A DNA stretch of 64,000 nucleotides from Cepaea nemoralis (Eukaryota; Mollusca; Gastropoda; Stylommatophora; Helicidae): the NCBI GenBank assembly GCA_014155875.1, contig JACEFZ010011366.1, positions 62,001 through 126,000 of the forward strand. The letters are read 5' to 3'. Below the pieces are notes generated by a model that saw nothing but the letters and a program-made list of their open reading frames with translations, had not been told where the DNA came from and searched no databases. Shown here piece after piece: positions 7,673-49,793 of this stretch. The translations under genes were made by a program, and so were the position numbers. How positions within the stretch are numbered: position 1 is the stretch's first letter; every line of letters starts with the position of its first letter.

Positions 7673-7803
7673 GCCGGCTCACATACCCTGTAAGTTACCG
7701 GTGCGATTCGAACCACCGCTGATTCTTACCGTCATCACGTTAACCCACGAGAGTATACGAGATTACGGAGAAAATTCATAACCTCTAAGCCACGAAGCCG
7801 GCC
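7673..7803 (-). repeat. tRNA-like element (SINE head candidate)
   Basis: On the minus strand an A-box-like TGGCTTAGAGG (7792-7782) is followed 68 bp later by a B-box-like GGTTCGAATCG (7714-7704). The ends are GGCCGGCT/AGCCGGCC, an 8-bp inverted repeat in acceptor-stem position. The A box starts about 11 nt from the 5' end, as in a tRNA. The A-to-B distance is too long and the T stem pairs poorly, so it is not a working tRNA. A tRNA-derived SINE is the best reading; an intron-bearing tRNA pseudogene is possible. Confidence 0.4.
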
Positions 7804-8842
7804 AACATATCATAGACAGTATAATAAACCTGATGTGTTATCCAACATATCGTAGACAGTATAATAAACCTGATGTGTTATCCAACAATTGACACACAGT
7901 ATAAAACTTACATGTACTTCAACAAATCATATACAGTCAATAAAATGTGCATGTTATTCAACAAATCATAGACAGTATAATAAAACTGATGTGTTCTTCA
8001 ACATATCGTAGACAATATAATAAAACTTACTTGTTCTTCAACATATCGTAGACAATATAATAGAACTGATGTGTTCTCATACAGATTATTTTTTTTACAT
8101 TTTTGGGGGGTTTGAAAACAGTATTTAAAAAACAAGAGCATAAAACTTATGTGTTCTCCAATAGATCATTTGTGTAAGCAGTATAAAATGACAGGATAAA
8201 ACTTATGTGTTCTCCAATAGATCATTTTTGTAAACAGTATAAAATGACAGGATAACTCTTATGTGTTCTCCAATAGATCATTTTTGTAAACAGTATAAAA
8301 CGACAGGATAACTCTTATGTGTTCTCCAATAGATCATTTGTGTAAACAGTATAAAATGACAGGATAACTCTTATGTGTTCTCCAATAGATCATTTTTGTA
8401 AACAGTATAAAACGACAGGATAAAACTTATGTGTTCTCCAATAGATCATTTGTGTAAGCAGTATAAAATGACAGGATAAAACTTATGTGTTCTCCAATAG
8501 ATCATTTTTGTAAACAGTATAAAACGACAGGATAACTCTTATGTGTTCTCCAATAGATCATTTGTGTAAACAGTATAAAATGACAGGATAACTCTTATGT
8601 GTTCTCCAATAGATCATTTTTGTAAACAGTATAAAACGACAGGATAACTCTTATGTGTTCTCCAATAGATCATTTGTGTAAACAGTATAAAATGACAGGA
8701 TAACTCTTATGTTTTCTCCAATAGATCATTTTTGTAAACAGTATAAAACGGCAGGATTAAACTTATGTATTCTCCAGTAGATCATTTTTGTAAACAGTAT
8801 AAAACGGCAGGATAACACTTATGTGTTCTCCAGTAGATCATA
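7803..8842 (-). repeat. Intronic minisatellite of exon-junction origin (left part, ~40-bp then 56-bp units)
   Basis: Units at 7803-8100 are about 40 bp and at 8150-8842 about 56 bp. On the minus strand a typical unit reads GATCTATTGGAGAACAC followed by ATAAG or GTAAGTTTTAT. The last bases of the exon at 13331-13118 are GATCTGTTGGAGAACAC followed by GTAAGTTTTATT. The array is therefore built from the exon's 3' end plus its 5' splice site. Donor GT is intact in some units (near 7906 and 8025) and decayed to AT in most. The rest of the array lies at 12976-13117, across an inserted LINE. Confidence 0.8.
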
Positions 8843-8869
8843 TCTCGTCTCATCCTGTTCCTCTTGTAC

Positions 8870-10960
8870 CTTGCGGTGTCGAGGTGAAGTATAAATAGCG
8901 GGAGAGTGCCCGCTGATGGGCTTCATATATCGATACTCCCATGGACTCTGTTTTTCCCTGCGTCCATCGTTTACGAGGTCGGCCTCTTCCTCTGTTTCCC
9001 TCTGGTCTGTACATCATTGCTTGTTGTGGTATACTGTTAGTTGGTAACCTACTTGCATGGCCAAGCCATATGACTTGCTACCTTCTAATAAACTCTTGCG
9101 ATGATATAACCCCCACTTTAGTCCTGATTTCTTCATTTCTGATCTTATCTCTTCTTGATACACTGAGTATTCTTCTCAGGAATCTCATTTCTGTTGTTGT
9201 GATTTGTCTTTTCTCTTTTTCTGTCATTGTTCAGGTTTGGCATTGGTAGCATAGAGTTAGTAGGAAGATTGTGTTGTAAAGTCTTAGTAATTATTGATAC
9301 ATGTTTGTTCTTTAGTATTGACGCCATTTGTCCAATGAGTTGGTTTGCCTTATTGCGTCTATTTTCGATCTCGTCTTCTCATTTGTCATTTGATGATCTT
9401 ATACTTCCTAGGTACTTGAAACTCTTTACTTGTTTGTTCGTTTAGGTGAATCGTTGTTGTTTTTTCTTCTTTGGTTATAGTCATTACCTCTGTTTTACTT
9501 GCGTTAATTTTTTGTATTATGTTCCTTACATATTTCGTTTAGACTATTCATGTGGTCTTGTAATTCTGCTTCTGATTTTGCTATTAGTGCTTGATTGTCC
9601 GCAAATAGGAGTTCTTTAATGGTGTAATTTGCCGATAGTTCTTATTCTGTGTTCTGTTCATCTGCGGCATTCTTGCGATCTCTGTTTGGCTGGTTTCTTT
9701 ACATATGTTGTCTATATATGTTATGAACAAGAGAGGGGACAGGACACAACCTTGTCGTACTCCAGATCTTATGGTGAAGGGTTCTGAGTGTCCTCCAGTT
9801 GGTCTCTCTATGCATTCGCTGTTGTTGTATAAACTTCTACATAGGTTTGTTAGATGTGTACTCACTCCATATTGTTTAAGGATTTCCCACAACTTGTTTC
9901 TATCTACTGTATCAAATGCCTTTTCTTGGTCGACAAAGGGTAAGTAGAGTGTTTCATTAAATTCGATTGATTTTTCTATTAGTTGTCTAAGAGCATAAAT
10001 AGCATCTATGCATCCTTTGTTTTTCCTAAATCCAAGCTGTGTTTCACTTAGCTGGGGTTCTACAGTAGTTCTACAGTAGTTCGTAGTTCGTTTGTAATGT
10101 GTGCAAATCTCTTTTACTGCCTTTGGTTTTCCAAATTGAAATAATTATGGCGTTTCCCCAGTCTCGTAGTGTCTGTTGTTCTACCCAAACATGGTTGAAT
10201 AGTCTATGTAGCCATGCTATTCCTACTTCGCTTGCTGCTTTAATTACCTCATTTGGTATTTCGTCTTGTCCCGTTGATTTATTCATTGGGGCTAATCTGA
10301 CGGCCTCCCCAATTTCTTCTTTCAGTATGTCTGTTTCTAATTCTTCGATGGCATCTGTGTCAGTTTCATGAATCCCTGTGGCAGCTGATGGAATGTTGAG
10401 AAGTTGTTCGAAGTACTGCTACCATCTTATTAGGATTTGCTCCCCCCCCCCCCCACTTATTTTTTATCCATTTTTGCTGTTAATTATGTAGTTTAGGAGA
10501 ATGGGGTCTCCTCTGGTTCTCATTGCACTTATCTGTTTGTAGAACTTTCTAGTTGCCTCCTTTAGCTTTTATTTAGGGTTTCTCCATATTCCCCCCCCCC
10601 CCCTTTCCAGTCATTTTGTTTTTCTCTCTTTACTATTCTATTCACATGCCTTCTTGCTATTCTATATTCATTGTAATCACGGTTCTGCTTGCTCTTCACC
10701 CACTTTATATATATATATATATATATATATATATATATATATATATATATATATATATATATATATATATATATATATATATATATATATATTATATAAT
10801 ATATATATATTTCATGTTTGTCTTTTACAGCTTTATTTACCTCTGCGTTCCACCAACTTGTCATTTTCTTTATCCGTGTTTTGCGTTTTTTCGTGGTTCC
10901 ACATGTTATTTTTGCAGTATTTAAAATGCTTGATTTGAACATCTCCCATTCTTCTTCCAC
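8870..10960 (-). pseudogene. LINE reverse transcriptase, broken
   Basis: Minus-strand pieces in order: WWNAEVNKAVKDKHEIY (about 10820), NKSTGQDEIPNEVIKAAS (about 10280), SGVRQGCVLSPLLF (about 9770) and ELLFADNQALIA (about 9610-9580). The last is the catalytic block, normally FADD. Here the second Asp is Asn, which should abolish polymerization. A tail with GRGRPRKRW follows near 8990-8960. Frameshifts separate the pieces, and a long (TA)n interrupts the linker between endonuclease and RT. Confidence 0.75.
10703..10813 (+). repeat. (TA)n microsatellite inside the LINE
   Basis: About 50 TA dinucleotides with a small interruption (TATTATATAATA) near 10790. Nearby poly-C runs at 10443-10454 and 10592-10602 are also low complexity. 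Confidence 0.97.
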
Positions 10961-48239: not shown

Positions 48240-48880
48240 AACTGATGTAATTGATTGATTGATTGATTGATTGATTGATTTAGGAATCGACATCACAGCA
48301 TTCGGGGCATTCCCATAAGTGCTCCGTCCCCATCCTCAGCAGCCAGCGAAGAGTTCCAGCACTAATAGTACCAGTAGCAATCTGATTATAAGTCCGCCTC
48401 GAATTTCCTTTGAGCGTTGAGCGTCGGCCAGATCCCTTCGTCGCTCCTCGTTGTCTCATTCTTTCCAGACCATGGTAATCCATTTACTCCTCCGAGGTGT
48501 GCACGTGCTCCCACAAGGCCGCAACCACGTCTGCCTTGTCATGTATCAATACTCCACCAAGTTCTGCAGAGCCAGCCAATCTGTCCGCCTGTTTATTTCC
48601 CAGCACACCGGCATGCCCCGGAGAAAAGACCCAGGCGATGCTTGTCACCCGTGACCTCCGAAGCGAAGCAAGCCACTCCGCACGAAGTCTGCCCGTCCTG
48701 ACCCTCGTCAGCATGCTTTCTGAGTCAGTTACAATCACGATGTGTGTGTGTGTGTGTGTGTGTGTGTGTCGTATTCTCCATCCAGCGGAGAGTCGCAGTG
48801 ACTGCCTCCGCTTCCATTCTTAAGCTGGAACTGATGTAATCTGGCCTGTATAGAGGGCAAATACAGAGAGGCAGCTCTTG
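48240..48880 (-). mobile_element. LINE RNase H fragment with (AATC)n tail
   Basis: The minus strand gives SSLRMEAEAVTATLRWMENT, then a (CA)n expansion (48741-48769), then VTDSESMLTRVRTGRLRAEW, AWVFSPGHAGVLGNKQADRL and GTLRWLLRMGTEHLWECPEC. This is an I-group-type RNase H and tail, related to but distinct from the copy at 42124-43017. The 3' end has (AATC)n at 48281-48252. The microsatellite lies inside the domain between its second and third catalytic blocks and breaks the frame. Confidence 0.8.
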
Positions 48881-49550
48881 GTCAAAGGAAATGATGGACA
48901 TGTGGTGGGAAAGAGTGCGAGAGGACAAGAGGAAGACAACACTAAATGTCAGTGAACAACATCAAGAGATGGACTGGAAGAAACTGTTATGGATGCACAG
49001 ATACAATGCAGGACATAGGGTGTTCATAATTCATTACAGACGAACTTCAATGTGGAGATGGCAATTGGTGATGATAAATATGACACCTCAGAAGTTGGGG
49101 TGGGTTCGCCTGATGGCGAGGAAGACTGGTAATAGGGAAAGCTAATCCACCCGCAAAAATCAGTTCAGTACCATGGGAATTGTAGAACGTAAAAGGCCTA
49201 CACTTGAGTTAAATCGAGCTAGCACAATAAAATAAAAATAATTATGACAATGAAAAAAAAAAAAATAATAATCTGGAACACTATTTGCGTTTCCTCTAGT
49301 AGATATGTGATTTTGTTTTAGAAGAATGTCATAGACAGAGAATAATGTGCAGAATAGAATAGACAGAGAGGACAACAAATGCTGAGGTATTGAGGCCTAT
49401 AGGTGCTGCAAGAACATTAAATCCATACAGAAAATGCAAATAAAATGTTTGTGATCAGAAGAGGGAGAATAGAGAAATTAGCTGTATGAAGGACACACTA
49501 GCAAGAGAGGCAGAGAAAGATGTGCGTGGGCAGTTTAAACTTCCGAGCAG
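48881..49550. other. Intron, no element recognised
   Basis: AT-rich sequence with a poly-A tract at 49253-49265. No gene or transposon is supported. Confidence 0.5.
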
Positions 49551-49659
49551 CAAAAACAGTCTAAGAAACACACACACATTAATATATCAGGTGACAGTTT
49601 GAACAGCTGGGCAATAAACAACAGTCTAAGCAACGCACTTACATTAATATAGCAGTAAC

Positions 49660-49793
49660 TATTGTTTATATGAAAAGAACTAACACAAAGATGTCTAGTT
49701 ATACTCACGTCTAGCCTATACGATTATCATGGGAATTCTCTACCTATTGTTTATACAACAAGAACCAACACAAAGATGTCTAGCCGTACTCAC
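49660..49793 (-). repeat. Two-copy duplication starting at the 5' splice site (85-bp period)
   Basis: After the donor of the 49896-49794 exon, the minus strand reads GTGAGTACGGCTAGACATCT. 85 bp later comes GTGAGTATAACTAGACATCT, followed in both copies by TTTGTGTT and ATAAACAATAG. This is a minimal version of the donor-bearing arrays of the other introns. Confidence 0.85.

Follow-up and report, generated by a model that had tools for sequence, protein, structure and literature searches.

How can a gene keep working when its introns repeat, up to dozens of times, the very 5' splice site that begins them, and why are such repeats there at all? The question is raised by a gene with a fibronectin-III domain in C10518:62001-126000, the stretch of 64,000 bases analysed here (the window, from whose first base positions are counted), which belongs to an assembly of 3,472,891,610 bases in 26,579 contigs. 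Behind four of the six exons of this gene found in the window, the neighbouring 5' splice site (donor) is copied by tandem units. A sequence-only reading of the window had regarded donor regions as possible preferred seeds for expansion, and the multiplied sites as tolerated, or used as buffers, decoys or recursive splice points. Toleration proved to be the most likely status of the arrays. Quite probably, neutral slippage or unequal exchange happened to include exon edges, and the result is tolerated through use of the outermost site.

The gene and its exons

Six exons, A to F, lie on the minus strand (a slash marks the splice point):

49794..49932, minus strand, exon A, half of a fibronectin-III domain, donor CAA/GTGAGT
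44812..44913, minus strand, exon B, donor CAA/GTAAGT
32988..33139, minus strand, exon C, donor AAC/GTAAGT
25731..25947, minus strand, exon D, donor CAA/GTAAGA
16532..16707, minus strand, exon E, donor ATG/GTGAGC, without a donor array
13118..13331, minus strand, exon F, donor CAC/GTAAGT

The donor ends are therefore 49794, 44812, 32988, 25731, 16532 and 13118. All six exons have canonical acceptors and donors, and their phases, calculated from exon lengths, chain as 1-2, 2-2, 2-1, 1-2, 2-1 and 1-2. The start of exon A at 49932 is the probable one, as judged from the gene copies described below; the alternative is 49896. When the exons are joined, the protein of 321 residues matches Pfam fn3 above the cut-off in a single stretch (residues 28-80, 28.9 bits, cut-off 25). 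Among the peptides of single exons, only that of F gave a weak fn3 match, at 14.5 bits, which is under the same cut-off of 25. A protein search with the joined sequence returned no relative at E <= 0.01, and a comparison of exon D with solved structures yielded four matches, none better than chance level (E 0.43 to 0.5).

Donor copies in the introns

A 70-nucleotide window around each donor was aligned to the remainder of its own intron and compared with 200 shuffles. As had been noticed for the exons ending at 49794, 44812, 32988 and 13118, the donor recurs in register inside the following intron at four of the six donors (introns I1, I2, I3 and I6), with alignment scores of 48, 94, 58 and 62, none of which was reached by any of the 200 shuffles. 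The donor windows of I4 (score 20) and I5 (score 18) were unmatched in their own introns, 169 of 200 shuffles scoring as high in each case. The exon tail that falls inside the repeated stretch measures 0, 13, 4 and 23 nucleotides at I1, I2, I3 and I6. Donor-linked array units are 39, 40, 56 and 62 bp long, and I1 has a two-copy duplication only. The repeats are located as follows:

49675..49793, minus strand, two donor-headed copies behind exon A, starting at 49793 and 49708
44367..44821, minus strand, first part of the 62-bp array behind exon B, exon tail plus GTAAGTC, 8 donors
41829..42109, minus strand, second part of the 62-bp array, 5 donors
42124..44365, minus strand, fragment of a long interspersed nuclear element (LINE) inside the 62-bp array, with reverse transcriptase and, by eye, an RNase H region
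29650..32987, minus strand, 39-bp array behind exon C, GAAT/GTAAGTGACA, about 88 units, 71-72 intact donors
23683..25640, minus strand, 31-bp array with GTGAGT near exon D, 43 of 64 units intact, out of register with the 25731 donor
12983..13140, minus strand, first part of the 40-bp array behind exon F, exon-F tail plus GTAAGT, two intact donors including the real one
8146..8841, minus strand, 56-bp sub-array, exon-F tail GATCTATTGGAGAACAC plus ATAAG, about 12 copies
7803..8077, minus strand, last part of the 40-bp sub-array, two intact donors

The two donor-headed copies behind exon A, already recognized in the sequence-only reading, stand 85 nucleotides apart and are alike over 34 nucleotides, beginning exactly at GT. 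Behind exon B, the repetition of exon tail plus GTAAGTC was likewise described correctly, whereas the number of repeats, given as about 11, becomes 13 donors (8 + 5) in two parts that flank the LINE. Within the span of this array, 12 of 15 GTAAGT motifs read CAA/GTAAGT as in the real donor, and two of the other three lie within the LINE. The LINE fragment has 101 relatives at E <= 1e-10; two of these carry species names, and both are gastropods (Bradybaena similaris and Elysia chlorotica). It is missing from the exon-B array on contig C246 and is thus a recent or polymorphic insertion.

Behind exon C the units headed by GAAT and a donor are as reported, and only their number, about 67, was too low: the array holds 72 sense GTRAGT by motif count, and GTAAGT is intact in 71 of 88 units by cyclic alignment. 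On the plus strand, at 30310-32960, the antisense of this array is open in two frames of 848 and 880 codons, because the unit length is a multiple of three. At exon F the exon tail is indeed repeated, and the decay that had been noticed amounts to dead donors throughout the 56-bp sub-array, the roughly 12 copies of which read ATAAG, not GTAAG. Between the parts of the exon-F array, at 8.86-12.97 kb of the window, reverse-transcriptase-like fragments were seen by eye, and this is likely the second boundary array here to contain retroelements.

The 31-bp array near exon D, offered earlier as a weaker match, does bear GTRAGT (46 in all), but its register with the donor was not upheld. It was rejected as donor-derived because the 25731 donor window is unmatched and because its profile, built from units from 25640 onward, first matches at 25640, about 90 nucleotides past the donor. 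For the GTAAGT copy at 25677 a loose likeness was noticed, by eye only.

The arrays of the five introns have unrelated unit sequences, 10 of 10 pairs being no better than shuffles (lowest p 0.107). A common origin was accordingly rejected, and the arrays arose separately within the gene, as had been proposed.

Motif counts and conservation

GTAAGT and GTGAGT number 106 and 64 on the minus strand of the window, and 11 and 10 on the plus strand. We examined 22 arrays on both strands. Sense GTRAGT occurs 8, 5, 72, 2, 0 and 2 times in the six donor-linked arrays, and three times altogether in the 15 arrays unlinked to any donor; antisense GTRAGT is absent from 21 of the 22. Intron sequence outside arrays (22,335 bases) contains 14 sense and 13 antisense copies. 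GTRAGT enrichment is a property of the donor-grown arrays plus one array near a donor.

Conservation was measured by a cyclic alignment of the units, which were not cut at the donor. In the 39-bp array GTAAGT ranks 5 of 34, being kept by 71 of 88 units where the other hexamers have a median of 65; in the 31-bp array GTGAGT ranks 7 of 26, being kept by 43 of 64 units where the median is 40. The arrays thus show neither special conservation nor special upkeep of their donor motifs. Selection for donors, suggested by an apparent conservation of 99-100%, was discarded: that figure arose from cutting units at GTAAGT/GTGAGT and from trimmed local alignments.

Are donors preferred?

We defined a local duplicate as an alignment score of 40 or more, the highest shuffle in the donor register test being 36. 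By this measure 520 of 1002 sampled intron windows of the fibronectin-III gene (52%) are duplicated elsewhere in the same intron, and against such a base rate four of six donors are no excess (P = 0.38). The introns of this gene are saturated with repeats. By a placement test (threshold 0), the chance that an array begins at the donor is 0.0001 to 0.0028 for each intron. We prefer the base-rate test because the placement test forbids arrays to enter exons, an assumption broken by the arrays of the fibronectin-III gene and of a chaperonin gene, which do enter them.

Exons of other genes in the same assembly were also compared. The sample of 49 consists of 39 myosin exons (30 of 69 myosin-head exon matches, namely those with loci, plus 10 hand-picked others, one dropped) and 10 chaperonin exons (stretches hand-picked from 70 matches). 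Duplicates touch the donor window in seven exons and the acceptor window in seven; of 354 windows in intron interiors they touch 80. For the 30 myosin exons taken with 1.5-kb flanks, the figures are 5/30 donors, 2/30 acceptors and 105/570 interiors, and two of the five donor hits (L037 and L040) are lost with shorter flanks.

Five of the 49 exons have duplications that strictly span a boundary: L031, L051 and L080 at the donor, and L096 and L098 at the acceptor. The myosin-head exon L031 (G000:C25496:235404-235997) is followed directly and in register by 43 copies of a 34-bp GTGAGT unit, which continue to the limit of the sequence examined. Two-copy duplications with exon tail are found at the donors of the myosin exons L051 (about 60 nucleotides) and L080 (about 90 nucleotides, with a dead donor). 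The chaperonin (PF00118) exons L096 and L098, both on G000:C15671, have acceptor-side arrays of 66 bp x 9 and 87 bp x 7.4, whose units contain the acceptor plus roughly 40 nucleotides of coding sequence. L098 additionally has a 38-bp array x 21 that begins about 15 nucleotides past its donor. Both boundary types are thus affected, donors only in the fibronectin-III gene and acceptors in the chaperonin gene. This suggests that the oddity is not donor-specific, and a special seeding mechanism is then unnecessary.

Over the whole assembly, spaced GTAAGT triplets number 153,303 versus 234,852 for the reversed hexamer, both counts of repeats being lower bounds. This count takes introns together with all other sequence, a single long array yields many matches, and every listed place falls on one contig; it shows only that arrays resembling donors are not exceptionally frequent in the assembly as a whole.

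Copies of the gene and history of the arrays

When the assembly was searched with the protein of this gene, further copies came to light: six exons on contig C22827, three on C17835 and two on C246. C246 has 96-97% identity with the window over 1.5 and 2.0 kb, and may be an allele or a recent paralogue. In exon A (49794-49896), the C246 locus L073 differs from the window at 3 of 103 nucleotides, and in the upstream intron at 0 of 164, which is too little to call diversifying selection. At L078, on C17835, the upstream exon apparently encodes a Thr/Pro-rich, mucin-like linker, as judged by eye.

The duplication behind exon A, with its 85-nucleotide spacing, is present in all four gene copies. 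The 39-bp array is found behind exon C of C22827 too, where 1.5 kb contain at least 35 GTAAGT, and of C17835, where they contain at least 37. Repeats common to several copies are older than the split of those copies. Behind exon F of C22827 the exon tail is likewise repeated, by eye. Behind exon B the window has 13 donor units, C246 six, C17835 two and C22827 one; the length of this array keeps changing after the copies split. By eye, C17835 and the window have an identical duplication junction behind exon B, while the exons and upstream introns pair C17835 with C22827 as nearest neighbours. The lone unit of C22827 would therefore best be explained by a contraction that did no harm to the exon. 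The identity comparison covered exons A, B and F of the copies completely. For exons C, D and E, which are partial in it, wrong acceptors were picked, and the reading frame of the copies was forced by script, so that their equal phases are not proved by it.

Elsewhere in the window, at 56312-61644 on the minus strand, are long open frames that by eye are of the Ty3/gypsy-like retrotransposon type.

Predicted consequences for splicing

The inner donors are identical or nearly so to the real donor at positions -3 to +6. Were they used, translation would soon end at most exons: the first stop codon begins at intron nucleotide 2, 2, 6, 2, 57 and 2 for donors A to F. A recursive splice site consists of an acceptor abutting a donor, YAG/GTRAGT. 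No such motif exists on the gene's strand anywhere in the window, and recursive splicing, one of the functions that the sequence-only reading had considered, was rejected on that account.

Probable origin and toleration of the arrays

The reading that we consider quite probable runs as follows. Replication slippage or unequal exchange would duplicate a segment that happens to straddle an exon boundary. Such a tandem duplication would keep the outermost boundary and the exon intact, and hence be nearly neutral. By exon definition the spliceosome would choose the site adjoining the exon, since the inner copies, though of much the same quality in sequence, each lack an exon to go with them. If an inner donor were used, a stop would follow within a few nucleotides at five of the six donors, and decay of the transcript, not a new protein, would be the likely outcome. 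Use of no copy but the one that touches the exon is likely how the cell copes. With the outermost copy still attached to the exon, duplications would likely go unnoticed by selection, provided that exons pair with the nearest sites. Duplication would account for the tandem form, the varying share of exon, the changes in length, and the occurrence at donors and acceptors alike.

Several points weigh against this reading. Local duplicates are lacking at all five acceptors of the fibronectin-III gene (P = 0.026 relative to the intron base rate), a hint of some bias towards donors in this gene, though the chaperonin gene does have acceptor arrays. The sample of 49 exons is small, and near-identical contig pairs were kept in it. 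Use of the first donor is predicted from sequence, and sequence alone does not distinguish slippage from unequal exchange. As for the contraction in C22827, it is not secure: in the 60 nucleotides past exon B, C17835 is nearer to the window (0.93) than to C22827 (0.70), and having one copy could be the older condition instead.

The difference between four of six donors and none of five acceptors is also what speaks for the first rival, that 5' splice sites are preferred seeds for expansion, through R-loops or slippage, with donor-headed arrays in excess. The placement test, in which arrays start near the donor and not at random places in the intron, favours it too, but only under the mistaken assumption that arrays stay out of exons. 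The donor rate is no higher than the local-duplication base rate of the gene; in the 49 other exons donors equal acceptors and do not surpass intron interiors; and spaced GTAAGT triplets are not above the reversed hexamer genome-wide. An excess of donor-bearing arrays beside exons was therefore not borne out by this small sample and the triplet count, although the absence of duplicates at the five acceptors here points the other way. We regard preferred seeding as unlikely. It is very unlikely that the multiplied U1 sites are functional, whether as buffers, as decoys or as a block to premature polyadenylation in long introns, even with 72 strong donor motifs, all on the sense strand, in one intron of 7 kb. 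That sense-only bias is explained by origin alone, the donor hexamer is without special conservation, donors are dead in the 56-bp sub-array, and C22827 has a single unit behind exon B; the idea of buffers or decoys loses its footing on the same grounds.

The close match of the inner sites to the real one would also fit alternative 5' splice sites that give several mRNAs, as in human IFI6. This would be highly improbable here, with a stop beginning at intron nucleotide 2 to 6 for five of six donors and with units of 31, 40, 56 and 62 bp that break the frame. That the arrays are artefacts of assembly or haplotype is scarcely credible: the assembly has many contigs and near-identical contig pairs, and unit numbers in such arrays are easily misassembled, but the repeats recur behind corresponding exons of two to four contigs and occur in unrelated genes as well. 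Neutral duplication of exon edges thus remains the reading that we prefer.

Should the splicing inference hold, these genes would test directly how one 5' splice site is chosen when dozens of near-identical sites follow each other at intervals of 39 or 62 bp, with the 1-2-6-13 series of gene copies as the dose response. More tentatively, as a possibility that we would not yet call probable, this may be a genome outside the chordates whose minisatellites take in exon edges as a matter of course, donors and acceptors alike and in housekeeping genes too, so that many genes have tens of equivalent splice sites and the spliceosome chooses by position alone. The gene copies with 1, 2, 6 and 13 donors would then form a natural series for the study of exon definition, and the arrays would be standing material for new introns.

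Comparison with known systems

The statement in the sequence-only reading that no named system of this kind is known cannot be retained, since "mirage" minisatellites (PMC3087553, PMC3902484) and the minisatellite of human IFI6 (PMC4526556) precede the present case. Mirages were described in amphioxus Adh3, the globins BflGb6 and BflGb9, and troponin C, and similar repeats in PGBD5 (PMC3087553, PMC3902484); their units are 10-72 bp long in Adh3 and about 150 bp in the globins, and they seem not to disturb regular splicing (PMC3087553). As there, minisatellite-like units in the present genome span the exon-intron boundary at both 5' and 3' ends, and splice signals exist in many, not all, units (13 donors in the 62-bp array, 71 of 88 units in the 39-bp array, dead donors in the 56-bp sub-array). 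Unit number varies between haplotypes in amphioxus and between gene copies here.

Multiple splice donors in the minisatellite of IFI6 were reportedly described by Turri in 1995. The repeat units of this human gene (also 6-16 or G1P3) act as splice donors (PMC4526556). Downstream units are used there and three mRNAs result, whereas an inner donor in the present gene would lead to a near-immediate stop at five of six exons. According to the Rogers model, introns are gained by tandem duplication across splice or proto-splice sites (PMC3087553, PMC2891723), and tandem copies of exon edge plus splice signal, its raw material, are shared with the arrays described here. No new intron was seen, although no systematic search was made and the reading of the other gene copies was complete for exons A, B and F only. 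Intron minisatellites are known from earthworm metallothionein genes (PMC12783039), the available parts of that report making no mention of repeated splice sites. Among open-licence titles and abstracts, a body that leaves most subscription journals outside, we found no report of boundary-copying repeats in a mollusc.

Mirages have been reported from cephalochordates, whereas the LINE of the present genome has gastropod relatives, so that minisatellites of the mirage type would be extended to a probable mollusc. Unlike the mirages, the present gene has 72 donors in one array, and four of its six introns are affected. In short, boundary minisatellites are already known, and this gene is a new and extreme example of them rather than a new system.

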